64,000 nt of DNA from Odontocerum albicorne. Taxonomy: Eukaryota; Arthropoda; Insecta; Trichoptera; Odontoceridae. The stretch is taken from assembly GCA_949825065.1 (NCBI GenBank), contig OX463865.1, positions 21,251,115 through 21,315,114 on the forward strand, read 5' to 3'. Position 1 is the stretch's first letter. Each line of letters opens with the position of its first letter. A program made the translations under genes and the position numbers. Positions 15,436-64,000 of this stretch are shown here, piece after piece. The notes under the pieces were generated by a model, which was not told the DNA's origin, searched no databases, and saw nothing but the letters and a program-made list of their open reading frames with translations.

Positions 15436-16440
15436 TAATTTAACTTTGAGAAATGCCGTAGAAGGACCCTCCTGAACTTAACAACATCTCTATTGAAAAT
15501 ATCCACCAAACTAGACATAGCATCATTTATCTTACGAATGCAACAACAGCAGTTATCCGATTGTTGCATACTTAAGATGGATGAATTAAAACTCGCAACT
15601 GTCGTTAGTTGACCAAAAGTGCTACGAGTATACACAAATAATTGTTGGCCTTTTTCATTGTAGTGCTGGACATATGCCTCTTCTTTGTGTCTGCATTTGG
15701 TGCTATCCCACGCTAGAAATTTCGCCCGAGGTCCTGCAATGCCTTTTACGTTACTGACTATCGTATCGAGTCTTTGATTTGTTCGTAATTATTTCCATAA
15801 TTGCTATTGACATATTCTGTGTTTCTAGCAGGAGTGTGCACACCAATTCGAATTAGTATATCGAGGCTATCAACGATATTGTGACAGGACCTGTCATGAG
15901 ACATGAGGATAATCGGTACTGCCGTTTAAATGTACTCCTCTTTTCACCGCATCTGTTTGATCCCTGATCTATTTATGCGTTTTACGCTCTTTCATGGAAA
16001 AGACCCAACATTTTGGACGGTACTTCGAGTATATAACGTATTCGCAACTCTTGTATTCCAACCCGCGACGACAGCGTCAGTGATTTATGTCGTGAGTAAG
16101 CGTGTCGTAGCTGTAATGTTATGAATTTTAAAGTCATGAAAGCATTATTATGATTTATGGCGCGGGAAAACAGTATTTTGTCGCGGTTCGACAAAACCGA
16201 TTCCGGCGCTTAGCTTAATCTTGATGTTTGTTACGAATTTCTCATTTTCTCTATCTTTTAAAACTTTCTACTATAATAATAATAATAATTTATGACAGCT
16301 TTTGTTTGTCTTTCTTCAGCTCCCACGTTTGATTTATTGTTAAAAATCCGCACTATTCTGTGTTTTCATTTGCCACGCCCAGATCTTTAGCAGAACGGGT
16401 GGTCCACGTTTTAGTCAGTGGCACATTAGCACGAGTTATT
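15436..16440. other. No recognised feature
   Basis: A 1-kb stretch without family matches. It contains several short frames on both strands and an (AAT)n run at 16275-16290. Confidence 0.4.
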
Positions 16441-16508
16441 ATTTAGTATTGTTTGTGCTCCCCTGAAGATGAGTTGAAAGCCTTGAAACCGGTAGGGTTA
16501 TACCGTAT
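16441..16508 (+). repeat. Penelope-like 3' terminal fragment with hammerhead-like core
   Basis: Matches the end of the Penelope-like element at 59640-59760: 'tttgtgctcccctgaagatg', then 'ccttgaaaccggtagggtta' and TACCGT. Contains CTGAAGA, GAAA and the GGTA/TACC hairpin. Other copies are at 35385-35500 and 45395-45500. Confidence 0.7.
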
Positions 16509-16645
16509 ACATTAGTCAGAAATGAATGAACAGTGGTGAAGCGGGAGACCGAGGGAATGTTGGAAGGATATAGATGGAGAAACTTTGACTGAATGAAAGA
16601 TAAGAAGTAAGAGAAAGAAGAAAGCAAGTACGAGTATTACGAGAT
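16509..16645 (+). repeat. LINE-A-like degenerate tail
   Basis: 'gtggtgaagcgggagaccga' and a following GWKDIDGE-like stretch resemble the RGRPRxxW region. Too degenerate for certainty. Confidence 0.4.
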
Positions 16646-16784
16646 ATGTGACAGGAAAACTTTTTTTTTTTTTATATTTTAGTTAAATTAATATAAAATA
16701 CTTCGACGATTCTATTATGCGCTATCCAAGCGTTTAATTTTGATATCCCTTATAAAAATGTAGTTTATGAATTGAAAATCGACC

Positions 16785-17505
16785 GTAATTTTCAGCCTCT
16801 TGTCTTCGCAATATTTATGTACAGCGCGGGGATGTGTACAGTACCCGGCGGTGGGATGTGTACAGTAATACACATCGAGCTTAAGAAAGAGACTGTCGGC
16901 CATAATCGACTAACTTCGGCTTTGTAGAGCGTCGTCTCTGTCATTCATACACGTGTTTCGTCGCAATTTGTCAGTCGTTGCCAAGCGTAAGCGTAGCGCA
17001 TCGTGCGAAAGAGACGACGCTCTACAAAGCCGAAGTTAGCCGATTATGGCCGATAGTCTCTTTCTTAACCCCCGATGTGTATTACTTACCGCCGGGTACC
17101 GTATTTACTTGTAGAGCAAGCGAGATACGCAAAATGCATGCTTTTAAAATTTGATGCTAGATAAAGATGTTATGAATTCCATGGACGGCAAGGCGAAACT
17201 AATGCCTCCGTTCTTGAAAAACTTCGCCAGCACATTGTCGACAAAATGCTTATGAGGAGTCCACCGATTCTTAGGACACATTGCCCGTAGCCAAGGAGAC
17301 AGTTGGCAGAGGCTTATGGTCATTGAAAGCGTATAAGGACGACGCACAAGAGGAAGAGTCTCAATGCGTTGAACTGACCAAGGGAGGGACGCAACTGGAC
17401 TACCTTACATCGCTGTTTTTTGAACCGCCGCGCCGAATGCGGGCCTGGATGGAGAGGACTCGTCAAGGGCTATCATGGGAGTCGTCACAGTGCATAGCCA
17501 TGAAC
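16785..17505 (+). repeat. LINE-B copy interrupted by MITE M1
   Basis: The left part (16785-16840, 'ttgtcttcgcaatatttatg') and right part (from about 17105) together match the LINE-B copy at 22180-22620, where the sequence is continuous. The right part encodes a PVAKETVGRGLWSLKAYKD-like run, then a QLDYLTSLFFEPP segment typical of this LINE C-terminus. The MITE at 16844-17096 split it, which gives the order of insertion. Confidence 0.75.
16844..17096. mobile_element. Palindromic MITE (family M1), copy 2, nested in LINE-B
   Basis: Ends are CCCGGCGG and CCGCCGGG with intact TA duplications (16842-16843 and 17097-17098). The arms match copy 1 (10776-10986) closely, but the loop is longer ('gtcagtcgttgccaagcgta'). 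Confidence 0.9.
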
Positions 17506-17508
17506 ATA

Positions 17509-18017
17509 ACACTTCGATCAATAAGGCCCGGGACTAACTACTAAAACAACATTTGTTTGCCAAAATTCTTCTTTATTCATCAACATAGTCTCCTTCAAGA
17601 GCGATACATTCATTCCAACTCTTTCCTAATTTTTCTATGCCAGCCGTGTAGAACGATTTATCTTTGGTTTCAAAATAGGCGTTAGTTTCGGCAATCCCTT
17701 CTTCATTGGAGCCAAATCTCTTTCCCTGGAGCATCTTTTTGAGGTCTGTGAACAGCCAATGGTCGCTGGAGGCCAAATCTGGAGAATACGGTGGGTACGG
17801 AAGCAATTCGAAGTTCAACCTATGCAATTTGGCCATCGTTACCAAAAATAGTAAAAGTAGCGTCACTAAAACTACTCTAACTCAATGACACAATGTCGGA
17901 ATGTCATGAGAGTTCGACACGTAACTTCTAAAGGTTGGTACTAACTGGGAATGGTATGGATTTGTTATTAGAGGCGCCATCTGTTGGTTAGTCCCGGGAC
18001 TTATTGATCGATGTGTT
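17509..18017 (-). mobile_element. Mariner derivative (family 3), 509 bp
   Basis: TA-flanked (17507-17508 and 18018-18019). The inverted ends contain 'cgatcaataag', and 'cccgggactaac' follows in both. The interior keeps only the C-terminal transposase quarter on the minus strand. Confidence 0.9.
17573..17866 (-). pseudogene. Mariner transposase C-terminal remnant
   Basis: Encodes FELLPYPPYSPDLASSDHWLF, the third catalytic aspartate block (with S in place of the usual P before SD), then LKKMLQGKRFGSNEE and a WNECIALEGDYVDE terminus characteristic of mariner proteins. The first two catalytic residues and both DNA-binding helix-turn-helix motifs are missing. The apparent Met start is not meaningful. 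Confidence 0.88.
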
Positions 18018-18248
18018 ATCACAAATATAAATCTCCCCAATGCAACGAACGCTTTGTGACCTTGATACTAACCCTTCTTTAAGAATAGGATATTTTCGAA
18101 CTACTCGTATTTACATTATTTACCTAGTACTTGTGTGTGAGATTGAGACCAGTTACTGTTACTGCATTTTAAATGAGATCTCGCTTCTCCCTCACTTAGT
18201 TTGTTCACTTTTGCTGCATTCAAATTCGAAATTGAAATCGAAGAATTG

Positions 18249-18573
18249 TAGCGAGAGTAATAATGTTAACTAAGTAAACTCTATTACATATCGTTATCCA
18301 CAGTACAACCGAGTAATGTTAATTAAGTAAACAGTATTCCATATCGTTATCCACAATTAAACCGAGTAATGTTACATAGTAAACTGTATTGCATATCGTT
18401 ATCTTCAATATAACCGAGTAATGTTATATAGTAAACTGTATTACATGTCGTTATCCACAATATAACCGAGTAATGTTGTATAGTAAACTATATTACATAT
18501 CGTTATCAAGAATATAACCGAGTAATGTTATATAGTAAAATATATTACATATCGTTATCCACAATACAACCGA
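18249..18573 (+). repeat. 52-bp tandem repeat, about six units
   Basis: Successive 'accgagtaatgtta' landmarks fall at about 52-54-bp steps from 18307 to 18520. Units contain 'acatatcgttatccacaata'. No coding potential. Confidence 0.9.
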
Positions 18574-19769
18574 AAATAATTGTCATATTGTTCGTAATCA
18601 TTAATCAAACATAGTTTCCCTGTAATTTGTTCACTCCATTATTGTACCGTGTGTGTCTTGGGAGTATACGCAATGCGCGCGAGAGCCTCGTGTGCCGCGT
18701 ATGTACTCGTACATAATAGTTCGGCAAATATAATATTAATGAGGATATGTCATTTGTATCTCCGATCGACGCGATTGCCATTCCGTTCCATCAGCTGGAA
18801 TTGGCTGAATGAGGGGGTGGGGGGCTGTGTACATCGAATTATTAATGCTTTTGTATACACTCACAAGTTGTATTTAACTCGATTCAATGTTTGTTGCGGT
18901 GGCGCTTGAGGGAAATGTTCATCACTTTTCACTGAACTTTATCATTTATGTCGTTTGTGTAACACACCAGACATATATGGTATATTTGCCGATTCAAAAT
19001 GGTGTATTGATATTATTTGATATCTAAATTGGAATATGTGTATAATATAATGCCAATTTAATTAGATTAACTATTGTAATTAACTCCATTTATTAGTTTT
19101 TTAAGTCTTTTGCACACCACAGGTTTCCTTAATTAAATAAATATGTGTTTATTGATAGCATTATAACATAGTATACACATATATAAATACATTCCAAAAT
19201 CGCACATATGTACTCGTATATCTCAAGATAAATAGCAGAAAATACATCCAAAAGAGAAGCTACAAAAGGTCTGGGCTCACCCCACCAATGTAGGGCGAAC
19301 CTGGCCGCGAGGCCATCTTATGTTTTTCAGTCCACGCCCTTGTACATGTAGTAGAACAGAATTAATAAGTGGCAGATGAAAATTAGAAAGTAAACCCACC
19401 AATACCATCTCAGATTAACTCAAACAAATAAATATAGTTTATTTGATAGCAACATAGTGTGTACATGTGTATAGAAATATATTAGTACAAGAACCAAACA
19501 TGACAAGTTAAAAAAAAACTGTATAAAACAATTCAAAATGTTATTTGATAAAAATTATTGTAAAAATGTATATGTTACTCTAAAATACTATGAAAAAATG
19601 TGGCATGTTAGATAATATAAAAATATTAAATTATTTCAAGTACTACACTAAATTCATGAGATTTCTTCTGAACGAGCTGAGCTGAACGACACATGAAATA
19701 CGTCTATATGAGGACACACACACACGGTTAAACAGTGTGATTGCTCTACCTACCGGCATAAGTGGAATG
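18574..19769. other. AT-rich stretch with no recognised gene
   Basis: Includes a GC-richer bit at 18640-18910 and a short patch at 19268-19340. It holds two TACTCGTA octamers (18704 and 19211). Otherwise low-complexity AT-rich DNA. Confidence 0.4.
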
Positions 19770-19995
19770 TGAGTGGTGTGACCAACGTGAGTGGAACCCG
19801 TGTGAGAGAAAAACCAAGAAAAGTATGGTTGGATCAAGTGAATGATATTTCGAAAGAATGAAATGAAGAAAGTCAGAGAAATCGCAGAAGTTCCATGAGT
19901 AGATTTATGGATGTAGATGAGACTAAGGTTGTGTGCTGTGATAGGAAAGTCTTGTGATCTGTCCTCCGACGAAATTGCGTGATGGTTGGCATTAT
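19770..19995 (+). repeat. LINE-A fragment
   Basis: Carries 'agtatggttggatcaagtga', QRNRRSSMSRFMDVDETKVV-like coding and the 'gcgtgatggt' end. Confidence 0.8.
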
Positions 19996-20059
19996 GTAAA
20001 TTATATTGTAATACTCGTAGTTTGTAATGAGTAACGTGTGTAGGCATTTATCAATTACT

Positions 20060-20170
20060 TAGATACAGCTTTTGCCGTTGCTGGTCCTCTGGTGTGGAAT
20101 AGTCTGCCTCCTAGATTTCACAAGTTTAAACATTTTTCCTTTGCATTAATACTTTCGCATTCATAAGAAA
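20060..20170 (+). repeat. LINE-E C-terminal fragment
   Basis: Encodes AFAVAGPLVWNSLPPRF, the C-terminal signature of a CR1/jockey-type LINE whose 3' region also appears at 60840-61215. Confidence 0.65.
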
Positions 20171-20213
20171 TATTTTAATTATCAATCAATTTAATAATAT
20201 TGAAATGTTTCTG

Positions 20214-20375
20214 TCAATAGACCACACACACACTTTTGATGTGAGTCGTCCATATTAACATGACATCAATCTGATAGGTATATGATAAGCACTGCTCTAA
20301 TAATAAACCGGTATCATTCCGCCTGAAGAGAGTCTCGGGATAGGATTTAGAAACACGCGTAGCGGGGATTTATAT
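20214..20375 (+). repeat. Dispersed repeat R8, copy 2
   Basis: Matches 8700-8850 from the ACAC run through 'aataaaccggtatcattccg' to 'agaaacacgcgtagc'. Confidence 0.7.
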
Positions 20376-20629
20376 GCGTTTAAGAATAACAAAGGAATTT
20401 ATTGTTAAATGTGCTTTTTTATCTGTTTGTCTTTTTTTTCAACCAGTAATTCTCACGAATTATCGTAACTCTTGTTTGGTAAGTTGCATTCGATTGCCAA
20501 ATGGCAATATTAGTAGTGTCTTAGTAAATAATTAATAGGTTCAAATGAAATTTTAATCTTATACTCGTAGTAGTACAACTGTTCAATTCTGCCACCGCGT
20601 AATATGTTTACTTCCCCAGCTCATCACCG

Positions 20630-20830
20630 GAGTTCTTCGACAATAGATTTCATGTACACAACATCCCATCTCAGATCTCTCTCGTACTTTTGGCGAAATA
20701 TGAACCCCGCTGGATGCACGCCCATCTTCTCCTCTCCGCGGGGTGTAAACATGTCTCGGGCCATCTCCGTAATGCGCAATGTTTACTCTCGTCGCGCTTT
20801 AACAAGCTTAAAATACTGTTCCGCGTCCTG
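20630..20830 (-). pseudogene. Unidentified coding-like fragment with one internal stop
   Basis: On the minus strand one frame reads DAEQYFKLVKARRE, then a TAA, then TLRITEMARDMF and on through KMGVHPAGFIFRQKYERDLR to SIVEELR, followed by two stops. Composition is GC- and CpG-richer than the flanks, and the residue pattern is strongly protein-like. It is preceded on its strand by ATCACAG, which could be a 3' splice site, but no matching 5' splice site is clear. It may be a decayed host exon or a fragment of an unrecognised TE. I do not recognise the family. Confidence 0.4.
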
Positions 20831-20954
20831 TGATCGCATGTTGCAATATCTTACGATACTCAGAGATAAATTCTGAAACTTCAAGAAACGGGTTTCAGGA
20901 GGCATTTGATGACCATCATATTTGAGAGACGTTTATAAAATTCATGAACGTACT

Positions 20955-21185
20955 TTCAACTTTTGTATAAGAATTTTCGGAGTGTTGTGCCGCGTGGTGT
21001 ACTATGTGAGTCCGAGGTTTCGAAAACGTTGTTGTTTCATCTTTAGGGCTTGTTTGTTGTCAATTTTACTATAAGCCAACGCTCTGAAGATGAAAACGGT
21101 ACAGTTTTCGAAACGTCGGCATCACAAGTCAAACCGGGCGGTACAACATTCAAAAATACCTTACGCAATTGATACGAACAACTAC
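20955..21185. mobile_element. Fold-back element F1, copy 1
   Basis: The left arm ('agtgttgtgccgcgtggtgt' ... 'tttcgaaaacg') and right arm ('ttttcgaaacgtcgg' ... 'gggcggtacaacattcaaaa') are inverted. The right half holds a hammerhead-like core at 21084-21117. Other copies are at 48945-49270 and 53860-54055. Confidence 0.75.
21084..21117 (+). ncRNA. Hammerhead-ribozyme-like core in F1
   Basis: Order: CTGAAGA (fits CUGANGA), then a stem GAAAAC/GTTTTC, then GAAAC and GTC. This matches a minimal hammerhead with a two-base, loopless stem III, the arrangement known from Penelope-like retroelements. Activity is untested; such short stem III forms are expected to need dimerisation. Confidence 0.5.
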
Positions 21186-21192
21186 GAAAACT

Positions 21193-21488
21193 TCAATGTG
21201 TGTACTTTAAACTTGACCAAATATTGACTGCTTACAGGACATATCGGGAGATCAATGTGTGTACTTTAAACTTGACCAAATACTGACTGCGTACAGGACA
21301 TATCGGGAGATCAATGTGTGTACTTTAAACTTGACCAAATACTGACTGCGTACAGGACATATCGGGAGATCAATGTGTGTACTTTAAACTTGACCAAATA
21401 CTGACTGCGTACAGGACATATCGGGAGATCAATGTGTGTACTTTAAACTTGACCAAATACTGACTGCGTACAGGACATATCGGGAGAT
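21193..21488 (+). repeat. 59-bp tandem repeat, five units
   Basis: Units start at 21193, 21252, 21311, 21370 and 21429 ('caatgtgtgtactttaaact'). The last four are nearly identical; the first has several changes. Starts just beyond the end of fold-back element F1. Confidence 0.95.
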
Positions 21489-21644
21489 CAACTTTCTTTG
21501 TTCGTTTTTTTACTGTTTTCTTTAAAAAATATTCTCAAATGACTTCTCCAACTTGACCGCAACAGCCGCAAAATTATCTATAGTGAATGGTTGTTTTGAA
21601 CTTAAATATCATATAAAAAAGATGATATGAGAAATTTGGAAAAA

Positions 21645-21800: not shown

Positions 21801-22179
21801 TTTGTCTGAGTAGTTTACAATCCACAATCGTCTCCTTATGTTCAGTGTGAACAATGCCTCAATTTCCTCGCTTCATTATATTCAATAATTGTATGTGGTA
21901 AATACTCGTATTATATAATATTAACCGTCCCTCGAGATGCATACTCGTATTGCCGCATGCCCGTATTGAGTGTAACGCTCCGCCAAGTGTGAACTTACCC
22001 CGCGGCATCTCCGCCAAGTGTGATTGCATTCCGTTCGAAATACTTAAATTCCATCTGTGCTCTAATTACATGTTGCGAGACTCACTGAATGCTGAAAAAA
22101 CGCTTTTATATTTTTGGTGCTTTTTGACACAAAAATATTTTATTGCCAATTGTGATATATAAAAAATGCGCCTAGTCAA

Positions 22180-22620: not shown

Positions 22621-22649
22621 ATAATATGGATTTGATGTATAGAATTGAA

Positions 22650-23285: not shown

Positions 23286-23334
23286 TATGAATGTGTGATA
23301 CATTGATATACTCGTAGTTGCAATTTCTCCCAAC

Positions 23335-24172: not shown

Positions 24173-24173
24173 A

Positions 24174-24578: not shown

Positions 24579-24624
24579 AACTAAATAGCAACACTGCTAA
24601 CATATTTTATTTCGGCCGTAAAGT

Positions 24625-25199: not shown

Positions 25200-25838
25200 G
25201 TCCTGACCAATATTAATTCAGTGGGAAATAAAAAAGACTTGAAAGAAATTCACTAAAATTTCCGATGTTATTTATTTGTGGCGTCAAAGGATGGTTTTGT
25301 TGCATTCAAAGTACTGATAACTGACGGAATTATTTAAACTCCATGTATTTATTTATAAGTATATTTATCAAAACGCTAATAACTATGTGACATTTTACCG
25401 TTGTGTAGAGAGTATCATTGAATATCATGACAATATTTAGAAATACGAGTAGCTGCTAACTTTGTGCTTTCCTTTATCAATATAAATAACTTAATATAAA
25501 CATAACATGTAAGGACAACCCTTTATAAACATGTGAAATGTTTCTATGTTGTAAAGCAACTTTCATCTCGTGCTACAAGTGATCCCGTGTGTTTGTTAAA
25601 ATTCTCGATCTCAATCCATTAAAATTCTCGATAAATCCAATTCTCCTTGTTCTGTGTAAGCGTAATGTAATGCCACTCAAATCTAAGTACTTTACTTATT
25701 CTTCTTACAAAAATGATTTACACTGATATTAATACTATACACCCTAAACATCATTTCATATTTCCCATTAACAAGCTATATCTAACGTATTGAAGGAAAA
25801 TTAAATCATATGTTACAACCTTTTCCCCTATATAATAC
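25200..25838. other. AT-rich stretch, nothing recognised
   Basis: Contains two short direct repeats ('aaaattctcgat' at 25598 and 25620) and one TACGAGTA octamer (25444). Confidence 0.4.
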
Positions 25839-26762: not shown

Positions 26763-27040
26763 GTATGTGTTCCACTGTTACGTAAGTCTACTGGGCCAAA
26801 TCTGACAATATTTTGTAATAAACATATTAAATTTAAATATACTTAGTTTATAAATTGAAAATTAGTTTAAACAAAAACTAAGTAGTTATTACTCGTACCA
26901 CTGCATTTTTGTATCTACATGTTAGTTGAAGATAAACTTTTGTAATTTTGTTAATAAATAGATTTTTTTTTGACAATCTTAACTAATTGATTAGTAGATA
27001 TTGTCATATCTGTGTGCAATGAAGTGCTAAATAAATAAAT
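26763..27040. other. AT-rich stretch, nothing recognised
   Basis: Ends in a TAAATAAATAAAAT tract that precedes repeat R27, possibly the A-rich tail of a retroelement. Confidence 0.4.
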
Positions 27041-28215: not shown

Positions 28216-29590
28216 TATTTTTAACAGTAACATATCAAAAGTTCCTAATGTCCAAAAAGACGAGTGTGTTCACAAGGATGCTTAATACCCGGATAGGCAT
28301 TATCGTATTAAAACATTTTCAACAAGGCGCAAATGTGTCAGATATGTGTAGCATTATTATGCAACGTACATTATGTTATTATGCAACTTTATTTTACCAA
28401 AGTTTATATCAAATATTTCAAATTGGTTGTTATATAAAATAGACTAATTTAAAAAAAAAACGCGCACACTACAGGGCTAGGTGCAGGAACTGTCAGATAC
28501 TAATTGTTTGTGAATCGCAGCATGATAACAGAACGCACAATATAAATGGAAGAGGATCTCGGGAGAGGCAGGCGAGCAACAGATGAGCGGGGAAGAAGAG
28601 AAAGAGGCCGATGATTAATGAGGAAGATCCACTCCTCCCGTGCCGGAGCACTGATTGATTTTTTATCACATCTGGAGGGAAGTTTTTCCTGCGCCCTAAT
28701 ACTACAAGTACACGCACTCGAGCTTGAATAATATTTTAGGACCAGGAAAGTTAGAACAGGAGAATAGATGGTTTCAACTTGTATTACGGGTATGAATCAT
28801 CTTAAATTCAGGAAGATAAATATTTTTGTAATTTTTCATCACTTGAATGGTTGAAGTGAAAGTGAAAGAGGCACTAAGTACCAAAAAAAAACTACGTATG
28901 TAGTTCCATTCTGTATGACATTCACTTTCTTTAAGTAAACCTTGTTTGATGCAAACTTTACACATAATTTTATATGTATTGAGGATTTCGCGTACAAAAA
29001 AATACATAATTTACTTAATTCATCGCGGCAATAACAACTTCTTCACTTTACTTCTGTAAGTTACTCGTACATGAAATTCAATGCAATGCCTAGATGCGTT
29101 GTTTTGCTATGCAGGATTCATATAAATAATTTGTTGCAACTGGGTCATTGTGTTATAATATATTTTGCCGGGTGGCCTTCAAAGAACGTGTAACATGACA
29201 AACTGAGTAAGAGATGAACTAACATGTTTCAGTCGCGAGTGCGAGTAGCTAAGTACTCGTAGGTGCTTTCGGCATGTTAACTACTAGTATACACTTTATT
29301 TTTACCCTTCCCTTAGGATAAAGGTTTTAACGCCTTCGAAACCTTAGGTGTCATTTAAGCCAATAGGGCAGCAACGACTCCGAACAAACTATCAACTCTG
29401 GTGTTGATGTGTTACAGTATGTGCTTACTGTAGTGCTGCGTGTACTGGAATCATACGTCTTTTACATTACGCTGTTATTTTAAGGACATTAGACATTACA
29501 GGGAAACTATTGATGTTTCTGAGCAAAATACGAAGGTATTTTTTTTTCAGAATCATGTATCGTTGCTGAGACGTTGTGTATCTTGTTCAA
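28216..29590. other. No recognised gene
   Basis: 1.4 kb of mostly unique AT-rich DNA. A purine-rich, GC-richer segment lies at 28540-28720. Three TACTCGTA or related octamers fall at 29062 and 29254 and nearby. No element ends were identified. Confidence 0.4.
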
Positions 29591-35880: not shown

Positions 35881-36057
35881 TGTCCTGCGTGCTGATCGAG
35901 GTACACGTCAGCTTCACATTTTCAAGGTTTCCTTTTTCTATCGTTCATTTTATTTCAATGTCCGTGTGTTGGTACAGTACAAAAAGATTGGGTAACAAGA
36001 TAAATGAAATAAAAACAAGAAATTTTACATGAATCAAGACTTCAATAATTTTTTGTT

Positions 36058-36190
36058 GGGCAAATTTTGGGTGTATTTTTACAGGATAAATATCAGATGT
36101 GTTTTTGCAGGGTAAATTTTGGATTTATTTTTGTAGGGCAAATTTTGGATGAATTTTCGCTAAGTAAATATTGAATATACTTTTTAAGAA
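36058..36190 (+). repeat. About 27-bp degenerate minisatellite, five units
   Basis: Units such as 'ggcaaattttgggtgtattt' repeat with 26-28 bp spacing and 60-80% identity between units. Confidence 0.75.
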
Positions 36191-36960: not shown

Positions 36961-37016
36961 ATTTCTAAAATAAAAAAAAAATTATAACTACTCGTATTAC
37001 AGTAAAAGTAAATTAA

Positions 37017-37320
37017 CTCATTCAGTCCCTGTGTGCATAATTATGCACACTTATTTCAAAGCATAATATAACGAATAAAATACTCGTAATATAACGAATA
37101 GCATAATATAACGGCAAATTTTCTTTTAAAAACCTATGCAACAAGATTCTCTTTTCAGTCGTCTGTGTACGTTGAGACCTGTTGGGCATAATTATGCACA
37201 TGTTCAATTTCCTAGTAAAAAAAAAAAAAAAACATTTTTCTTCTATTAAAACCCCGATGAAGCCTAATCCACTCTTAAATATTTTTTTTCTCCCTTAACA
37301 ATAATTCAGGTCTGAAAGGG
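37017..37320. mobile_element. piggyBac-like MITE
   Basis: Flanked on both sides by TTAA (37013-37016 and 37321-37324). The ends are inverted: CTCATTCAGTCCCTG at left against CCCTTTCAGACCTG at right, which fits the TTAA-CCYTTTxxxCTG pattern known from piggyBac elements. Inside are two copies of a GCATAATTATGC palindrome; the first is a perfect 20-bp palindrome at 37031-37050. No transposase; 304 bp. Confidence 0.8.
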
Positions 37321-37639
37321 TTAAAATATACTCGTACATTAACAAATAAAACAATTAAAATAGGACAGGTTTGCCAGTACGGAAGTCAAAATAATTTCAT
37401 AATTTCAACAATATACTCAGTTATTCATACGATACGTGACCATCTCAATACAGGCAGCCCGCACCTTACCACACCGAGCGTCACTCTTGACATTCACGTG
37501 GAAAGTAATGTATCGTACAAATTGAACAATTTATAAACTCTGCAGAGAAGAAAGTGATTAATTGTGTATGCGGTAAAGGTTATTTTTGTATAAAGGAAGA
37601 TTTTTCCCCTCTGCCTCTATCATTGTGTGTATTTTTTTT

Positions 37640-37804: not shown

Positions 37805-38150
37805 TAAAGCTGATCTTAAAATAAGATGAAGGAGAGCATTCTAAGATGGTTTCTGCATGAAGAAGGAATGAATCGAGAATAACAAAAAAATATACAGTGC
37901 AAATGGGAATGGAAGGAGAAGGAATGTGTGGTTGTATTAAGTGAACGATACCTTAAATGAAGGAAACGTAAAATGTCAGAGAAATCGTAGGAGTCATATT
38001 AGAAGGTGGAAAAATGGATTGTAATTTATTTTTAACAAAGAGATGTAGTGAGTTGATAGATTTGTGTCACAATAGAAAAGCTTCCTGTTCGTAGAATAGA
38101 GTATACAACAGGGAGACTGCATGATGGTATGTTTGTACTCGTATGTATGT
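37805..38150 (+). repeat. LINE-A fragment
   Basis: Runs from a LKADLKI-RMKESILRWF-like segment to the 3' end at 'gcatgatggtatgtttg', where a TACTCGTA interrupts the usual 'gtatgtatgta' tail (38136-38143). Confidence 0.75.
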
Positions 38151-42685: not shown

Positions 42686-43130
42686 TTGCTAAATAAAATT
42701 ATTCCTATGGACATTGATTCCTTCGCTATTCACTTCCTTGACTTCTGTACAACTGGATTTTGTATTCTTAAACTGGCTGACATCTGCATATTGTATTGTC
42801 TTATTCTATTGTAGATTTGGGCAAATGCATTGGAAAATCATTTCCATGTACAAAGCAATATGCTCAGATACACCCGCCATTTCCCATGTCTCTCGGCAAG
42901 CTATTCCGTGTAACCATGCCCCACTATTTACGATTCCGCGACTGATTCGGAACTTTATTCCCCTCCGAAACAATTTCTCCTACCATGTACTCGTATATAT
43001 CCACCTCTTTTATTGGCACGTCCTCTTCTTTACTCTTTGTGTTTCATTATCCTTTTCCATCGATGGCCAACTCAAATAAGGTGGGAAACAATATTTCATT
43101 TATTAAAAACCTTGGTGCCTGTCAAGTTTG

Positions 43131-46440: not shown

Positions 46441-46460
46441 GACACAATGAAATGAACATA

Positions 46461-46667
46461 TCGTTGGCCTAACTATAAGAACACGTAACTCCGTATGAGT
46501 AACTTTACAGGAGAGAGTCACAGTTTGTCATAAAAAACAATGTCTTTATCAATCAGATATATTTAAAACACAATGTTTAAGTTTACATAGGACAAACTGT
46601 GACGTTTTTTCTCTCTCCTGTAAAGTTTCTCGTATGGAGTTACGTGTTCTTATAGTTAGGCCAACGA
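46461..46667. mobile_element. Palindromic MITE (family M2)
   Basis: Arms of about 75 bp are reverse complements ('tcgttggcctaactataaga' and onward), flanked by TA (46459-46460 and 46668-46669). 207 bp, no coding capacity. A short insertion of A/T bases separates the arms in the right half. Confidence 0.85.
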
Positions 46668-46806
46668 TATATTTAACCCATTCCTGTATCTGTATTGACC
46701 TAATGAACTAATTTTCATATATATTCGTTACATGAGCTCTGTTACCAGTAGTTTTACGACCTTCCTTAAATTATGTAATTTTCAAATCATATGAAGCGAC
46801 TGAACT

Positions 46807-51125: not shown

Positions 51126-51284
51126 GCTACGAGTAACATACGTCGGCGTAACTAGGCGGCTCAACGAGAGGGAGTGCGCGTCTAGATCGGGCTATTCTGT
51201 CACAGAAGATCACAAGATTGACGCGGAGGTGCACCTTGAGGACAAAATAAAATTGTGGTGCAACATGAGCGGACGGCGCGGTTG

Positions 51285-51495
51285 AGGAAAACAAGACCAT
51301 GGAAAGGATGGTTGGATCTATGTTGTTAGTGATTGATATTTTGGAAGAAGGCAACTAGAAAGTCAGAGAAATCGTAGAAATTGTATGAGATATATAGATG
51401 TGGAAGAGGCAAAATATGTTTGTTGAGAAAGGAAAATCTGGTATTTTGTTATCTACCTACCCCATCAGGGAAATCTACGTTATGGTACTCGTATG
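51285..51495 (+). repeat. LINE-A fragment with octamer insertion in its tail
   Basis: KTRPWKGWLDLC-like, then QRNRRNCMRYIDVEEAKYVC-like. The tail reads 'ttatggtactcgtatg', where the intact family tail at 40895-40910 reads 'tgatggtatgtatg'. Confidence 0.8.
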
Positions 51496-54360: not shown

Positions 54361-54389
54361 TCTAATAAATTTGTGTAATATTTCGTCTT

Positions 54390-54615: not shown

Positions 54616-55070
54616 TATCGTTCATACCTGAGATGTTTAGTTTTTTAATAAACGTTATATATAAATTGTTTTTAGTACCAAAAATACTACTCTCATTTTC
54701 CTCTTAATATTTTCAATTCAAGTGTTTTAAACATGTTTCAACTTTTGTTAACTTGAATATTAAATTCGCCATGACACATACGACAACGTTTTGAATATGT
54801 TCCTCCGCGTATCATCACATATCCTCAGCACGTTTGTACGAGTATATACCTCGACAGCATCTCTGCCCCAGATTTCCACCCCTTTTAACAGCACATCTCC
54901 ACACAGTACGTTTTCATCGTTCCCAGCACCTGGAGATTCTCACGGTGTATGGGAAGATCTATTGTATAGACGGAAATTTCCCATCAAACTGGTGGCAGCA
55001 GGTGGAATATATTTTATGGGTGCTCTATTGGTTAGATATTTATAATGTGTCTTTCATATTTCCCACCTTC
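54616..55070. other. No recognised gene
   Basis: 54790-55060 has overlapping open frames on plus with no recognised family. Confidence 0.35.
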
Positions 55071-55074
55071 ATTT

Positions 55075-55812: not shown

Positions 55813-56091
55813 TGATATTTATCTTCATACAATATGTTGTTTAATTAAAGGTTCTGGATGTTGTGCGTCCTGCATGTATCATATTGTGTTCATCCTCCTG
55901 GATCTGTATCTATCCACATGTCAAGCGAAGACTATGAACGATATGAACGAAGGAAGTACACTGATTATTCGGATTCGGATTGTAACATCCCCAAGGGACA
56001 TGGAATTATAATTATGTATATTCTCGTAGATGCATGTGTAGTATGCTATTTGGATAAAAGCTTTTATCTCCGATAAATGTAAGGTTTATTA

Positions 56092-57024
56092 CGAGGCGTA
56101 TCCAGAAAGTAAGTGTACTGAGGCTCTCATGACCGGATGGATTTTATTTTCGACATGTTGGCTACACTTCCGTGTAGCCTGACCCTTCCCCTCCGCAACG
56201 AGACCGGTTCGAGGTCAGTACGTTGAGAAGTGTCGACGCGACAACACGTTTCGTGAAAAATGTCAATCCAATCTCCCGCCAAGTGCGAAATACGGGGCGT
56301 CAACCGTTATCTCGTTTAGAAGGGAAAACCTCCGGTTGAGGTTTATAATGAGGTGAAAACTGCATATGGTGATAAAGCTATGAATTGTACGAGTGTGTAC
56401 AAGTGGTGTCGCGAGTTTAAAAACGGTCGTACGTCTGTGCATGATGATCAGAGGAGCGGAAGACCTTCAATTGTGACTGACGAAATTGACGAAATTGTTT
56501 TGGGACTGTCAAGGCATAATTTTAATTGAATATATGCCTCAAGGGGAGACCATCAACTCTGCAAGATACTATGAGACCCTAAAAAAATTGCGGAGGGCGA
56601 TTCAGAACAAGAGGAGAGGCATGCTGACAAAGGGAGTCTGCCTGTTGCACGACAATGCCAGACGGAACTGCTCGCCTCGTTTAAATGGGATCTCCTGAAC
56701 CGTCCCGCGCATTCCCCTGACCTAGCACCTTCAGATTACTATCTATTTACCTCCCTGAAGCTGCACATGGGTGAAAAAAGGTTTTCAACCGACGAGGAGG
56801 TAAAGGAGGAGGTGGAGAAGTGGACGGAGGGGTTGGCGGGAAACTACTTCGAGGAAGGCATCAAAAAGTTGATACCCCGCTTCACCACCTGCATTGAGAG
56901 GAATGGCGACTATGTCGAAAAATAGCTTACATATGTACTACGGTAACCACGTAATTTTTTTGTTTAAATAAAAAAAATTGTAACCTACAAAAATTCAGTA
57001 CACTTACTTTCTGGACTTACCTAG
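56092..57024 (+). mobile_element. Mariner element (family 1), copy 2, internally deleted
   Basis: TA-flanked (56090-56091 and 57025-57026). Inverted ends are CGAGGCGTATCCAGAAAGTA and its degraded complement. 933 bp. Confidence 0.9.
56261..56925 (+). pseudogene. Mariner transposase, multiply deleted
   Basis: MSIQSPAKCEIRGVNRYLV, a stop, then NEVKTAYGDKAMNCTSVYKW and VHDDQRSGRPSIVTDEIDEI. After a deletion joint it continues at YMPQGETINSARYYETLKKL. A second, smaller loss removes the bases after DNAR, which breaks the frame, so the second catalytic block is damaged. The AHSPDLAPSDYYLFTSLKLH block and the TCIERNGDYVEK end persist. The joints differ from copy 1. Confidence 0.88.
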
Positions 57025-57119
57025 TATCTTAACGGGGAAATAATCTTCCAAGTTGGGAACTTATGCGTACCTGGAATTGTCGCTGTACCTCTTCGTTCCG
57101 TGTTCAAAGTGTGACATTT

Positions 57120-57250
57120 AACATGTTATAATATATTATATATACGAGTATATGAGATTTTCTTTTCTTTCCAGGTGAGTACAGCACTGTCTTAACTATC
57201 ACCTGCAAATCGTAACCTTTACATTTTTGGTAAGTTTTTGCTCTTTTTCA
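57120..57250 (+). promoter_or_regulatory. Candidate recursive splice (ratchet) site, copy 3
   Basis: 'gattttcttttctttccag' runs into GTGAGT with the junction at 57174|57175. Downstream 'ctgtcttaactatcacc' resembles 'ctgtcttcactttcacc' after the 5258 junction. Confidence 0.35.
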
Positions 57251-57955: not shown

Positions 57956-57989
57956 TTATTTTCTTTGATTTATAAAACATCACGTCTCG

Positions 57990-58225
57990 ACACCATATGA
58001 ATGAGAGACTATTATAGATTCCATAAATATGAAAGATATATCTCTGACTATGATCAGATCGAGTCGGGGAGCAGGCGGCGCGCCGTCTCCGTGGAGAGAC
58101 GCCGCGCCGCTTCCTCCTTATCCGATTCGGGGCAGTCTTTAAAAATACATAAAGATCTTATCCGTCCATCCAGGCAGGAGCCGTTGCCAGCTCGGCTGTC
58201 TTAATTAGTCCGCTCCTTTTTTCTG
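57990..58225 (+). other. GC-rich island with arginine-rich open frame
   Basis: 58055-58130 is strongly GC- and CpG-rich, unlike its flanks, and contains an imperfect palindrome around 'gcggcgcgccgtctccgtgg'. The 67-codon frame (58001-58204) reads DQIESGSRRRAVSVERRRAA in the island. It is not similar to any repeat here. It could be a host exon or a regulatory island; unproven. Confidence 0.3.
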
Positions 58226-58555
58226 GAAAACTAGTAAATACGTTCTGCGGTTTGGATATCTCACTTCTCCTGCTTGCCTTTGAGAACGATGAGTTTTCAA
58301 AGAAATGTCGTTTGACCTATTCTATCAAAGAGGGCTATCTCAGCTCATCGTCTAGGATTTTTAAAATTAAGGTTTTTTGATATACATACATTTTTTTACA
58401 GTTAACTTGTCAACCCTCTTTTGAGTTTTGAACAATTCAGGCTGTCTGGGTATTTCTTGAAAAAATCTCTTTTCTTACTAATCGTGTATTATATTAAACG
58501 CATCGAGTTTATTGCCATGTGGCAATCTCTTTTCATTTGAAGAAATTTCTTCAAA
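58226..58555. other. AT-rich stretch, nothing recognised
   Basis: 58505-58535 has 'attgccatgtggcaatctct', similar to the 3' end of the jockey-like LINE at 32600. Confidence 0.35.
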
Positions 58556-58559
58556 GTTG

Positions 58560-58670
58560 TAATGATGGGTCACAATAGTTTATTAATGCCAACATTTATG
58601 TATGAGAGTGAGACGTAAACGTGGAAATAAATTGAAGAAGCAGAGTAAATGCGGTAGAAATTGTGTACTA
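58560..58670 (+). repeat. LINE-A fragment
   Basis: 'tatgtatgagagtgagacgt' (YESET) followed by 'agaagcagagtaaatgcggt' (RSRVNAV). Confidence 0.6.
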
Positions 58671-58746
58671 AGTAGAAAATGTGATATGTCGTGTTATGAC
58701 ATATTGTAATAAGAAATCTTCCTCCTCATACGTACAGCTCCTACGA

Positions 58747-59075
58747 GGTGCATGGCCGCGTGGTAACACACTGAACTTCCGTGCGGAAGGTTGCCGGTTC
58801 GAACCCCGCGCTGTCCCCTCGACTGATACAAGTATTTTTTTCCGCCTGGTATTCAGGGTATAACAATACGTATAACTTCGGTCATATTTATTCTTTTAAA
58901 AAAAGAGAAAAAAATGTGTACCGATGTGTTTCGATCGTCTCACTTGGGTGTAACATCGGATCCAGTACAGTGGTGTGGTCGGTGAGTTTGCTGGTGTGCA
59001 ACAGCTCACTGAATTAAACAAACTGAGGCACTGCTTCACTTCACTCCGAGGCCCAGCAACGACGACAGCTCTTAC
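58747..59075 (+). repeat. SINE-2, complete copy
   Basis: 'ggtgcatggccgcgtggtaa' (A box), 'ggttgccggttcgaaccccg' (B box), then the full body and 'aggcccagcaacgacgacag'. The best reference for the family. Confidence 0.85.
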
Positions 59076-59200
59076 GATTTCTCTGACTTTGCTCCATTTA
59101 TAGGTATGCTTATGGAGCAAAGTCCTATTTATAAAAAATATATCATATGAAATAACCAAAAATATTCCAAGTCACATAAAGCCAGCTTTTTACACTAACT

Positions 59201-59605
59201 TTAATCTCCGGAAACTCTTATTTCAATGGGAAAGGCAAAAATGGAATACTTAGCAACAGTGGTGTGTATAAACTTTTATGTGCTGACTGTGATCATTTCT
59301 ATATAGGAAAGACAGGAAGATCTTTTGAAAAGAGATTTCGTGAACACAAATCCGCCTTAACAAATCCTTTAATTTATTCTGAAATGGCTAATCATTGTCA
59401 CCGTGAGAATCATACTTTTTCTATCGATGATGCCAAATTCTTACATATTGGCAACGGAAATAAATTGGACAGATTAGAGGCCCTAGAAAATTCTAAGTCA
59501 GTATACCGATCGGAGAATCTGTTGAACAGTTATTTCCCCAAAATCTCCCCGCACTTGGCCGAAATTATCCCTAGCCTTCCTCACCCCCCAGCCTCCAACC
59601 GTTGA
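59201..59605 (+). pseudogene. GIY-YIG endonuclease domain of a Penelope-like element
   Basis: The frame contains SGVYKLLCADCDHFYIGKTG (GVY...YIG, the GIY-YIG core), RSFEKRFREH with the catalytic arginine, and FAxH-like MANHCHRENHTFSIDD, then a conserved LDRLEALE glutamate. Two cysteines (CADC) before the YIG motif match the CCHH-type arrangement of Penelope endonucleases. The open stretch ends at 59603-59605. The domain is complete and without stops, but it lacks its reverse-transcriptase partner. The Met at 59264 is internal to the domain, so it is not the real start. Confidence 0.88.
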
Positions 59606-59657
59606 AGCGTCTATATCGGTACCAGTTCGAACAGCATTTAGTCTTGTTTGCGCTCCC

Positions 59658-59702
59658 CTGAAGATGAGGTGTGCACCTTGAAATCGGTAGGGTTATACCG
59701 TC
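59658..59702 (+). ncRNA. Hammerhead-ribozyme-like core at the Penelope 3' end
   Basis: CTGAAGA, a stem AGGTG/CACCT, GAAA, a hairpin CGGTA/TACCG and GTC. The order fits a type of hammerhead known from Penelope elements; the two bases next to the stem are not ideal. Confidence 0.5.
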
Positions 59703-59754
59703 AAAAAAGTGGAATAAACAGTGTTTGTTAAAAATAAATTATAATAATTTTCTT

Positions 59755-59825
59755 CATCATACACTTAGCCTAACCATACTTTTCTTGGTTTTCCTATTTC
59801 ACACCTAAATACATTTGCACTTTGA
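59755..59825 (-). repeat. LINE-A degenerate fragment
   Basis: Minus-strand 'ggaaaaccaagaaaagtatg' then GT-rich sequence. Short. Confidence 0.5.
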
Positions 59826-59989
59826 ATCGATTATGTGTTTTTATATATGTATTTCTAACTAATTAATTGAATGACAAATGCAGTGGAAATTCTGTAGAAT
59901 AACAATGACTTCTGAACGCATTCATATATGATACTCGTATATCCCATCCCATCCCATCCTATCAAAAGTTCCCTGAAAGCACGCGCTAT

Positions 59990-60240
59990 TGACGCGCGCC
60001 GCTCATCCAATCCAAACAACTCGTCCACTGTCAGTAGTCAGTCAACTATCACGGATCTATTTCTGTCCTCACGCGCACTCGCAGTCGCACTGGCCGGCCG
60101 GTGACGGTGACGGCTGCGAGCTTGACATTCTCCATCGTCCGCATTTAGAGCTGACTGCTGGAGGATCGGACGGACTCGCCTAACAGCTGACTTGCAGCGC
60201 CGCCTCCTCGGTGATTTATTGTTGTGTATGCGCGACTCTT
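59990..60240. promoter_or_regulatory. CpG-rich unique island, candidate promoter or first exon
   Basis: A GC- and CpG-rich stretch ('cactcgcagtcgcactggcc') in AT-rich surroundings, with several TCAGT/TCAGTC pentamers (60029-60042) resembling the arthropod initiator. It is not a member of any repeat family in the window. A CCCAT-type short repeat (59942-59962) lies just upstream. A promoter role is inference only. Confidence 0.3.
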
Positions 60241-60417
60241 GTGCATCGGAGATTTGCATCGCATAGGTATTAATGTATGCATCATGCAGAGATTCATGGA
60301 ATGATTTCGACATATGTACATAGCAGAAATAAGAAATTAAAAAACATCGAAAAGAAGATTTTTTACGTTTGTACTGTTCTGCTGTACATGCACGCACACA
60401 TTAGACTTAACTCGATT

Positions 60418-60840
60418 GACTAGCTGGGTTCAATTCCCAGTGGGATAGATGGAATAGGTTTGATGGCAAATACCCCAGGCGAGGTAACTCACTTAACAGC
60501 GCCACTTTGATTGAGGCATTGTTGTAATCCTGTTAGCACAACTGACAATCGGGAGCAATCAATACTGTGCAGGAAGCTTGCCTCACGGGAACTTCCCTTA
60601 GTTCCAGGACTACTCTCCTAATTTACCTAAAGGATATTTGAAAAAAAATATGACACAAAATACTTTATTTTTATATTAAACATTTGTTTTGTATTCAAGT
60701 CCCTTCATTGGACGTCTCCATCGTATATTATCTTTTGAATTTTGCACCGGCGCTTTAGAGAGGAGTAAAACTCGAGATCGCTTACGTCTTCATCGCAAAT
60801 AAATCGATTGTTCCGTATCGATCCAATAGGGTGGGGTATT
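60418..60840. other. SINE B-box remnant and unique sequence
   Basis: 60425-60450 has 'gctgggttcaattcccagtg', a good B-box stem. The following 400 bp are unassigned. Confidence 0.35.
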
Positions 60841-61215
60841 ATAACAGGACTTTTACCGTTGCCGGTCCTATGACGTGGAATGATATACCTCAAATAGTTA
60901 GTGATATGGGTGGCGTGTGGATTTAGGAAGCACTTGAAGACAACCCTTTTTGGGACGTCTTATCAAAATTTATGAGTCAATACTTACATTTTACCTAAAC
61001 CTGAATACATTTTACCTAAACTATCACTAATCGGAAGATCTACAAAGGTGTCTTTGAAGTGCGTCGTCCGTTGTTCAATTTTCTTACCAAACTAATGACA
61101 ACAGCTAGCACCTTCTTACACTTAACTTGTTATTTTTTAAATATGTCAATAGTACTAGATTCGAATCCCTTGAGGAGTTTGCTCTCTAAATGGCGCTAAT
61201 AAATTACCATTTTAG
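60840..61215 (+). repeat. LINE-E C-terminus plus 3' region
   Basis: TFTVAGPMTWNDIPQIV (C-terminal signature), EALEDNPFWDVL, a stop, then 'atcggaagatctacaaaggt', 'cccttgaggagtttgctctc' and 'aaatggcgctaataaattac'. This copy links the coding end to the 3' region that occurs alone elsewhere. Confidence 0.7.
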
Positions 61216-61267
61216 TATTATTAGTGCCGTTGTTGTAAAGTTGCCAAAATATTTTTTTTAATACTCA

Positions 61268-61350
61268 GTGTCCTCAGATACAGGCAAAAGCCTAGTTTAC
61301 AGGGGACACGACAAATGAAGGGCAGCAAACCCAGATCCATTAAAATTGTT
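61268..61350 (+). repeat. Dispersed repeat R45, copy
   Basis: 'cagatacaggcaaaagccta' and 'ggggacacgacaaatgaagg'. Confidence 0.65.
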
Positions 61351-61383
61351 TATCCAATCGATTGTTTTAGATCTGGCTAACCT

Positions 61384-61510
61384 GACCTCTGTGGCCTGGA
61401 TGGAGGGCCCGCCTGTATCCGAGTGTTTTGGGTTTGATTCTCGGTGGTATCTAAAAAAAATCAAACGGTCTCTATTCATTCATTCGTATGGTGTCCATAT
61501 ATGGACAGAA
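61384..61510 (+). repeat. SINE-1 copy
   Basis: 'acctctgtggcctggatgga' and 'tgggtttgattctcggtggt' (B box), followed by an A-rich linker. Confidence 0.6.
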
Positions 61511-61662
61511 AACCGTCGCAAGGGGATCATAGTTTTCTGGCCTTAATCGAACTATAGAGCTTTAGCGCCAATGGATTATGCAAGAAACTTGTAGTTCTTC
61601 ATCGCATTGTTGCAATAGGAACGATTTTACTAGACTGCGACTCTATTTTATTTATTTTTCAG

Positions 61663-61722
61663 GTACGAGATCCATCGGGAATCGAACCCGAAACTCTGCA
61701 CCAACTAGACCGCGGAAGTTGT
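61663..61722 (-). repeat. SINE-1 fragment
   Basis: Minus-strand 'cgcggtctagttggtgcaga' (A box) and 'ttcgggttcgattcccgatg' (B box), with the variable loop shortened. Confidence 0.55.
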
Positions 61723-62935
61723 CGAAGAATTTGTTAGGCAGCTGCCAAGCTTTAGGACAACAATACATTCAAATCATTAATGTTCGTATCTGTATCGTCA
61801 ATAGTCATTCAATTATGCCACTTGTTCCAAGTAAGAAGCAATCGAGATCCCAGCGCCCTATCATTTGCATTGATCAGTGCCTACTAAGGGCATGCAGTCC
61901 CGATGCTCAGACAAGTTAGCACGCGTTACGAGTCCTGTTTACCCTTAAAATCACGTTCAATGTTGATTTCGTTTCAAAAAACCCCATATCTGCATGTTCA
62001 CACTGCATGTAGTCAATCAATCCTTCTCGGAGTCTAATCAGGATTCGTCAAGTAGACCAAGGCAAATTATCTTGTTTTGCTTCTTTTGCAAATATGGTTC
62101 TGTGAGTTATTAATTAAAAATAGGTAAAAAAAGGCACAATAATTATTTGATTCCGGCTGTGGACAAGGTAGAGTTTTACAAAGTTGAAGAGGTGGAAATT
62201 ATAATCTTATCTGTATATCTCGGTTATGGTGACTTAATTGTGATTTTTATTTAGTATATTCCAAATTGTAAATCTTGGTGATGTGATCATCGCGGTAAAC
62301 GAATTATACTCGTATAGTAGAACTCGGCTCATCTTCATGATAAGCGGAGACCTACAATACGAGTATAATGAATAATTTATCAATTGCCGGTGTTAACACA
62401 ACACAATATCGATTTTCTTTTTCACAAAGCCGAGAACTGAACGCATTGAAGGGGTTGTCGTTTCTCAAGTTTGGAGAAGCCAAGTCGTTTTGATGACGGA
62501 ATAAAATATTTGGAAATCCGTGCCGGTCTACAATATCTTGGAACAAATTCCCAGAAAATTTCTTAAAATTATTCAAGTGCCTCCCCTTTAGATACATTAT
62601 TCATACTTCGCACTTAACAATTTGGCATGCCGGATCATCTCAAGCGCGCTGCATCGCTGAAATAGTCACGGCTGAAATTCCGAGGTTTTCCTTGATTCGC
62701 TTCTTTAGTATTCGTTTGTTCATTTTATTTGTATTCAAGACGAGTACCTCGAATGGTGCCAATATGCCGATTAACCTGATCCACTTTGGCGTCATCTGAA
62801 GAAGTCCCGTTGCGTGTTTTGTCACCTGCGTAGTCTTTCTTTATTTATTAAACTTCTTTGTCGTGACCTCAATGCTGGGGAACTTGACCCTCAATTTTTT
62901 TGTTTTCTTGTGAAAACTACTGAGGTTGTTTCCCA
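61723..62935. other. Unique sequence, no recognised gene
   Basis: Short frames on both strands. Contains TACTCGTA (62307) and TACGAGTA (62358) within 60 bp. Confidence 0.35.
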
Positions 62936-62937
62936 TT

Positions 62938-63005
62938 ACCTTCCGCACCGCAGTTGCTGGGTTTCGTAGTCGAAGATCCCCTCGCCTTTCCAACGACAGT
63001 CTCTA
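62938..63005 (-). repeat. SINE-2 tail fragment
   Basis: The minus strand has 'cgaggggatcttcgactacg' and 'aaacccagcaactgcgg', the last 65 bases of the family. Confidence 0.6.
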
Positions 63006-64000
63006 ACTGATCCTCCACATCGATCGTGTGCTCTTCTGCGAGAAAATAGACGCGCATTCTCACACGCAGACGTCACAGACATAGGATCCTGCTGAGCTGC
63101 CTCGTAAGACTGGCGCATGTTCCCAGCCCCAGCACGTTGTTACATGTCTAGCTGTTGAGACGCCGTCAGTTCAATAGCAGATAGCTCTCCATTTCCCACG
63201 ATCCAGATCCACATATTCTCAGTTTTCAGGCGCCCCGTACAAAGTCAGAGAATCTCGCAGGCTCTCCTGATTGCACTTTCTCTGTCTACCAAGCCTTCAT
63301 TTGCACATAACTTCCCCGTATAAATCGCGTTTTGGGAGCCTCGCAGTAAATGTTCTGGGAGTCGTACGTACAAATATATAGTATATATTGTGAGCCCTGC
63401 TGCCAATCTACAGTATTTTGAGGAGTCCTAGATGTAGTATATTTGTTGATGTAAAATGGGAGCAGGAGTGTTATAGAAATGTTTTGGGATATACTGATTA
63501 GGATAAGAGTTGGAAGGATTAGGAGAGAGAATAAGGAAAACACACATAAGCAGAAGTTAACAGCTTTTGTGCCCCTCCATCAAGTTGAACCTGCGGGCCC
63601 ACAGTTTCTTGGGTGTGGCCGCTGTCCGTGTACTGACAGCTGCTTGGAGTCAAAGGTGAATAGTTCGAGATATCAGCGGGCCAGGGGCTGAGTACTTTCT
63701 GGGTGACTCTAGACTGGCCAGTACTGTCCACGAGGTACTACCGCTTTATAGATCGCTACACCCTATTTAACTCTTTCGTGCAAATAGATTTGGTGGTATT
63801 ATTGCTTTCAATTAATTTATTCCAATGTTCCAGATTTGATTTTGAAAATTATTATTGGTATACTCGTACATGGCTGTGTCTGACGCAGTGTATATTTGAG
63901 AGAAAAAAAAAAGATAAATCTCAAGGAAAATAGGTAATGGGGTGGGAATCGTATGGGTTAAGGATGTTGAATATTTTGAAATAAATAGTGTTTTTTTCTT
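63006..64000. other. Unique sequence to the window edge
   Basis: 63006-63320 is GC-richer without a clear frame. The rest is AT-rich and unassigned, with one TACTCGTA (63862). Confidence 0.35.

Follow-up and report, generated by a model that had tools for sequence, protein, structure and literature searches.

We analyzed a 64,000-nt stretch of the genome of the trichopteran insect Odontocerum albicorne (C38:21251115-21315114 in an assembly of 1.287 Gb; referred to below as the window), focusing on a single octamer, TACTCGTA or, read on the other strand, TACGAGTA, whose copies are considered here as putative excision footprints of a transposon of the Tc1/mariner kind. The window contains two copies of a mariner that we named family A, and an exact scan located TACTCGTA 21 times and TACGAGTA seven times on the + strand, that is, 28 octamers. 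An order-2 Markov model predicts 1.9-2.0 copies, which corresponds to an approximately 14-fold excess (Poisson p ~1e-22), and in the masked window the octamer had the highest ratio (14.8) of 136 TANNNNTA words, the runner-up reaching 4.7. The first-pass annotation had listed 27 sites, had estimated a tenfold over-representation with 2-3 copies expected, and had noted that a mariner family of the window also begins with CGAG. All 27 sites do hold the octamer, with one start corrected from 63862 to 63861 and a 28th copy added at 10323; the over-representation was borne out by the counts above, and family A has CGAG ends.

Putative excision footprints with an exact match on the + strand are located at 18102..18109, 18704..18711, 19211..19218, 20012..20019, 20562..20569, 21903..21910, 21942..21949 (39 bp from the preceding copy), 23309..23316, 26890..26897, 29062..29069, 29254..29261, 36989..36996, 37081..37088, 37329..37336, 38136..38143, 42988..42995, 51486..51493, 59932..59939 and 63861..63868; those on the - strand are at 15623..15630, 16629..16636, 51128..51135, 54837..54844 and 57143..57150. 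The sole well-aligned repeat copy of the 19211 site (in stretch L012) is 3 bp shorter, and the 26890 site aligns ambiguously to L010:4195-4295. For the excision footprint at 25444..25451, on the - strand, the repeat copy L025:2573-2476 shows the TA empty site (GAAATACGAGTAGCTG versus GAAATAGCTA). Two further exact copies, at 62307..62314 (+) and 62358..62365 (-), stand at the opposite ends of a 67-bp imperfect palindrome (62303-62369), which has no second copy in the sample and may represent either a tiny element or a pair of scars within a hairpin. The remaining exact copy, at 10323..10330 (+), lies within a mariner relic, namely the first of the two family A copies. This copy (9659..10628, the transposase remnant on the - strand) is internally deleted and 970 bp long, with the ends TACGAGGC and TACTATGC; the second, of 937 bp, occupies 56090..57026 in the opposite, + orientation, with the ends TACGAGGC and TACTAGGT, and family A is a candidate source family of the scars.

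No common flank was evident among the 28 window copies. Their strand split of 21:7 (p = 0.013) was absent from 200 kb sampled elsewhere on C38 (18:21). The octamers are unevenly distributed among 10-kb bins (variance to mean 2.25), with one copy before 15623 against 6.8 expected (p = 0.008) and a mild clustering within 120 bp (7 versus 2.5 expected). With 0.44 octamers per kb, the window lies somewhat above the genome mean. We took the uneven spacing as varying density and not as the mark of a special region.

Genome-wide excess and sharpness of the octamer

Throughout the assembly the octamer was counted 190,749 times in forward and 190,753 times in reverse orientation (381,502 copies), 12.7 times the count of a control, the word read backwards (15,070 forward, 15,081 reverse). 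The Markov expectation was scaled to the genome from 294 kb, which comprised the window itself and the stretches L009-L031 and held 87 octamers versus 8.0 expected. On this basis about 35,000 copies are expected in the genome, so that the octamer is 10.9-fold enriched, with an excess of about 346,000 copies and an overall density of 0.30 per kb. That the counts of both strands should be added is confirmed by the 230 kb outside the window, in which 59 exact octamers (68 predicted from the sums) and 147 words with one mismatch (150 predicted) were found. In the 200-kb C38 sample (L009-L028), 39 octamers were observed versus 5.2 expected, and the octamer stood outside the best 15 deviant 8-mers listed; the 10-mers GGACAGTATC, GCCTTAACTA and ACCCTACCGG were strongly in excess in the same sample.

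The excess is confined to the exact word. The 24 words that differ from it by one base showed no excess in the 294 kb (197 versus 193-208 expected), and none genome-wide, where they number at least about 842,000 versus 843,000-910,000 expected, with forward and reverse tallies 4,099 apart; the window holds 50 of them, versus 42 scaled from the genome. Neutral decay of the scars to a mean divergence d should add about 8 x d x 346,000 one-mismatch words. No additional words of this type were found, which limits d to no more than a few percent, a bound that rests on a background model good to perhaps 5%. Judged from these one-mismatch counts, the majority of the scars look young.

Forms of other lengths were also counted in the 294 kb. 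The 3-nt form TACGATA was not enriched (48 versus 45.8 expected), nor was there any excess of the 2-nt forms, and among the four 5-nt forms TACGAGATA was found 6 times versus 2.9 expected, with the other three at or below expectation. TACATA (514 versus 340) and TACCATA (69 versus 54), which we take to be the scars expected of Tc1-like and Mos1-like ends, were in mild excess, the former being confounded by simple repeats. Near the start of C1, octamers and partial forms such as CACGAGTA are densely clustered at L008:590-860, and the stretch L029 has 11 octamers per 10 kb; in the genome-wide listing, tandem arrays of C1 hold octamers at spacings of 66 and 99 bp.

Flanking bases and empty sites

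The flanks of 79 distinct copies were read with the octamer collapsed to TA. They are mirror-symmetric, with A at -3 in 47 copies and T at +3 in 51 (29 expected for each), and C is almost missing from -3 (one copy) and +3 (three copies). Additionally, A is frequent at -1 (50, 31 expected) and depleted at +1 (12, 25 expected). A symmetric preference is expected of integration, and thus supports an integration site rather than a binding motif.

It had been proposed that empty TA sites be sought in related strains or species. Repeat copies within the genome (paralogues) were used here in place of such orthologues, for the octamers of the window and of L009-L028. Full flanks of 60 nt were available for 66 of 67 octamers, the one dropped being L021:36, near the end of its stretch. 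A spanning paralogue was detected for 14 octamers, and L019:4379 was set aside because its flanks match poorly, which left 13 assessable sites. At seven of these at least one paralogue is 6 bp shorter and carries TA in place of the octamer, and at none of the 13 is the octamer shared by a well-aligned paralogue. For other TANNNNTA words, used as a control, an empty site was seen in 8 of 1831 cases, and the word was shared in 1444 of 1831 (Fisher p ~8e-13; 7e-7 when just the four cleanest octamer sites are counted). The clean cases are L019:7205, with five TA copies; L015:2036, with two; L024:6073, for which TA is seen in all eight alignments, each with a unit of the same array; and window 25444, with one. 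Independently, a table of 6-bp indels between repeat copies, from which L001-L008 were omitted because they overlap one another, comprised 62 distinct sites. TACTCG was the inserted or deleted sequence at four of them, in four different repeats and always at TA. The classes ACCGGT (16 sites) and AAAAGG (seven sites) are larger, and each is only suspected to represent one repeat family.

Two explanations that need no transposon excision have to be weighed against these data. The octamer might be a functional motif to which a host protein binds and which selection maintains, as a sharp word with no obvious common flanks and a mild tendency to cluster would suggest. A surplus of the size given above is difficult to reconcile with such a role, however, and a binding protein should accept some single-base variants, yet such variants show no enrichment, while the flanks come to resemble an integration site once 6 bp are removed and seven of the 13 assessable copies face a 6-bp gap at TA, with none shared by a well-aligned paralogue; we consider a binding site very unlikely. 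Carriage of the word by a few repeats or satellites, of which the copies in the C1 tandem arrays and one pair of distant repeat copies with the octamer in common are examples, would predict shared flanks and shared octamers, but the 28 window copies have no evident common flank, the 79 flank pairs are distinct, and the same 0 of 13 applies. To repeat carriage as the cause of the excess we give hardly any credence.

Several observations weigh against excision as the origin of the octamers. By z-score in the C38 sample the octamer is only fourth among the TANNNNTA words, after TATATATA, TACATATA and TATACATA; TAGCGCTA has a ratio above that of the octamer (10 versus 0.8 expected), and TAACGGTA, TAACCCTA and TAACTATA are likewise in excess. 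The other over-common TANNNNTA words are probably explained by simple repeats and high-copy families, and TAGCGCTA, TAACGGTA and TAACCCTA, together with the three 10-mers mentioned above, are indicative of either high-copy repeats or further kinds of scar. The two sides of the scars are unequal, with A at -1 in 65 of 101 on one side and in 39 of 101 on the other; neighbouring bases possibly steer which strand is copied by repair, or the repair outcome or the orientation of the element may depend on the neighbouring base. Moreover, L015:2036 has four further copies that are 6 bp shorter and lack TA, the empty site of L024:5187 is ambiguous and belongs to the same array as L024:6073, and those of L012:1188 and L021:2774 are weak. 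No TA empty site was found for six of the 13 octamers (L011:320, L019:7875, L019:8184, L021:359, and window 10323 and 19211). Two of the six, window 10323 and L021:359, have paralogues with substitutions and look like chance words, of which about one in 11 octamers should be an example; the window copy, for which the other family A copy has CACTCGTA, is most likely the product of a substitution rather than a footprint. In looser comparisons, a close copy of L021:36 has TACGAGAA, a substitution rather than a gap, and the distant repeat copies L015:2036 and L019:4379 carry the octamer at an aligned place, either as an inherited scar or through two hits at one site; owing to its poor flanks this pair was excluded from the 13-site test. 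Finally, no site was seen in all three states (empty, filled and scarred) in this one genome.

Taking both sides together, we consider it very probable that the copies of TACTCGTA/TACGAGTA are mostly excision footprints of an element of the Tc1/mariner kind with the ends CGAG...CTCG. This reading is based on the enrichment, on the 6-bp insertion at TA relative to some repeat copies, on the symmetric flanks and on the missing excess of one-mismatch words. The enrichment suggested by the first-pass annotation thus holds genome-wide, at about 11 times the Markov expectation, and the TA empty sites that it had predicted were found in repeat copies. Its proposal that an element hopped repeatedly through the region is supported as far as the footprints are concerned, but not as a peculiarity of the region, since the excess runs through the whole genome.

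Candidate source elements and other features of the window

A search for inverted repeats bounded by TA-CGAG/TA-CTCG and 60-4,500 bp long (60-5,000 bp with looser ends) gave three convincing families (A, B and C) and one further convincing element, of 626 bp, in L015; TA-CGAGG was found at one or both ends of four inverted-repeat families of the sample. Genome-wide, exact matches to the 26-nt end of family A, with CGAG ends, number 9,870, and those to the 19-nt end of family B, with TA-CGAGG ends, number 2,829. Ten family A copies are internally deleted (871-970 bp), and a copy of 1,275 bp retains both ends, with its transposase frame broken. The family A protein contains a Mos1-type HTH_48 domain; its best database match (94%) is an unnamed protein, and its named close relatives are from ants (Pseudoatta, Trachymyrmex, Acromyrmex), a click beetle (87%) and a psyllid (86%). 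The protein evidence for a mariner covers family A alone, and the other families are presumably mariner-like, judging from their end sequences. In a subgroup of family A (L036, L037 and window 9659-10628) one end reads TACTATG in place of TACGAGG. Tc1/mariner relics elsewhere in the sample have different ends wherever the ends are visible. A 141-bp source candidate at 46494-46634 was dropped, as it is part of a larger palindromic hairpin (about 46455-46672) whose core has no second copy in the sample.

Either the CGAG-ended mariners cut one base further in than expected, or a Minos-like element made the scars. The former possibility, in which family A and similar elements (family B and others) cut 4 instead of 3 nt inside their ends, draws on the abundance of the CGAG-ended ends and on the four families with TA-CGAGG. 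It is also consistent with the age of family A, whose copies are about 90-97% alike over the longer stretches in the comparisons listed, and which is therefore not old. The flanks of family A resemble those of the scars at two positions: A or T stands at -3 in 52 of 52 ends, as it does on 181 of 202 scar sides, and T is rare at -1 (2 of 52 and 22 of 202). They differ at -2, where G occurs on 28 of 202 scar sides but at none of the 52 ends of family A (p = 0.002). Moreover, a cut in the Mos1 register should have left TACGATA, for which no enrichment was detected, and TAATAGTA, the scar predicted by the TACTATG-ended subgroup, was not enriched either (19 versus 17.3). We regard these mariners as a possible source, on the doubtful side of an even call. 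For one or more Minos-like Tc1 elements with CGAG ends, too rare or too near extinction to be met in the sample, speak the form of the scar and its 6-bp size, both of which match the Minos footprint, as well as the 4-nt scar, the absence of the 3-nt form, the ability of the outer bases of CGAG to pair with each other, and the counts of the 5-nt forms. A 4-nt stagger as in Minos fits the scars better than a Mos1-like cut. However, a tblastn search of the window and L001-L028 revealed no Minos-like element, giving matches of only 22-36% identity at ten places. We judge this source to be nearly as probable as not.

Among other features of the window, a 72-bp tandem array at 11490-12767 contains 17.7 copies with 97% matches, and a 39-bp array of 13 copies at 13363-13869 is open in several frames on both strands; more tandem arrays are present at 18261-18573, 21193-21491 and 36050-36157. 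A long open stretch at 1662-3434 encodes a DUF7869 domain (PF25273) and is possibly a transposon gene. The GIY-YIG endonuclease domain at 59180-59602 is, we assume, probably from a Penelope-like retroelement.

Proposed mechanism, known systems and implications

The proposed element would move by cut and paste, inserting at TA and duplicating it. On excision, cleavage by the transposase would fall 4 nt inside both 5' ends, so that 3' CGAG overhangs remain on the two flanks. The two overhangs could then pair at their outer bases, with the two central bases mismatched, and fill-in together with mismatch repair would yield TA-CGAG-TA or TA-CTCG-TA and lengthen the site by a net 6 bp. A 4-nt cut followed by such repair would account for the exact length of the scar, for the occurrence of both TACGAGTA and TACTCGTA, and for the lack of a 3-nt form. 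The excision events would be recent.

Among characterized transposons, Minos has ends that read CGAG. It shares with the case described here a net insertion of 6 bp at a duplicated TA, made of four terminal bases and found in both orientations; there, few scars are known, from experiments, whereas here there are apparently hundreds of thousands of natural scars in one genome. Two papers give the Minos footprint as 6 bp (PMC3386967, PMC10992017), and a third gives 2-4 bp as the span of Tc1/mariner footprints (PMC7913693). Papers on Sleeping Beauty and Tc1 describe scars of terminal bases beside TA (PMC3878927, PMC2874221), with overhangs of 2 or 3 bases (PMC3878927), in contrast to the four proposed here. 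The scars of the present genome are likewise terminal bases beside TA. Sleeping Beauty prefers the target A-N-N-TA-N-N-T, which the flanks of the scars resemble. The excision scar of Mos1 comprises three bases. Mos1 and other mariners resemble the present case in the TA target and the short scar of terminal bases, and a CGAG-ended mariner family is abundant here, but the word corresponding to a three-base scar, TACGATA, is not enriched. As far as the accessible part of one study indicates, excision footprints of a Stowaway MITE (miniature inverted-repeat transposable element) in grasses were followed for one element on a phylogeny (PMC1925063); those too were left naturally by a DNA transposon and were assessed by their presence or absence, while the observation here is a genome-scale excess of one exact word and not the phylogeny of a single element. 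Among the literature matches listed (titles and the beginnings of abstracts, mostly of the open literature) none reported that the octamer is in excess across a genome, and none gave a genome-wide count of footprints. What appears to be new is the scale, that is, a single exact scar in several hundred thousand copies that are apparently recent.

Excision is normally hidden in genome assemblies, because annotation covers resident copies only. A fixed 8-base scar at about 0.3 per kb makes it countable, and one genome would give the excision rate, the age, the target choice, the repair outcome and the effects on genes, with population data adding the same allele by allele. A screen of any genome is suggested, in which TA-NNNN-TA words in sharp excess, but with no excess of their one-mismatch words, are checked against repeat copies. 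For O. albicorne, we tentatively suggest, as a rather doubtful extension of the footprint reading, that Tc1/mariner elements with CGAG ends invaded the genome recently and produced about 346,000 scars, or about 2 Mb of 6-bp insertions, in 1.29 Gb. This would amount to about 27 scars per intact end in the two CGAG families that were counted. If family A proved to be the source, cleavage 4 rather than 3 nt inside the ends would be a new register for mariners, and if the invasion took place as suggested, transposition in this genome would be recorded mainly by scars, and not by resident copies.

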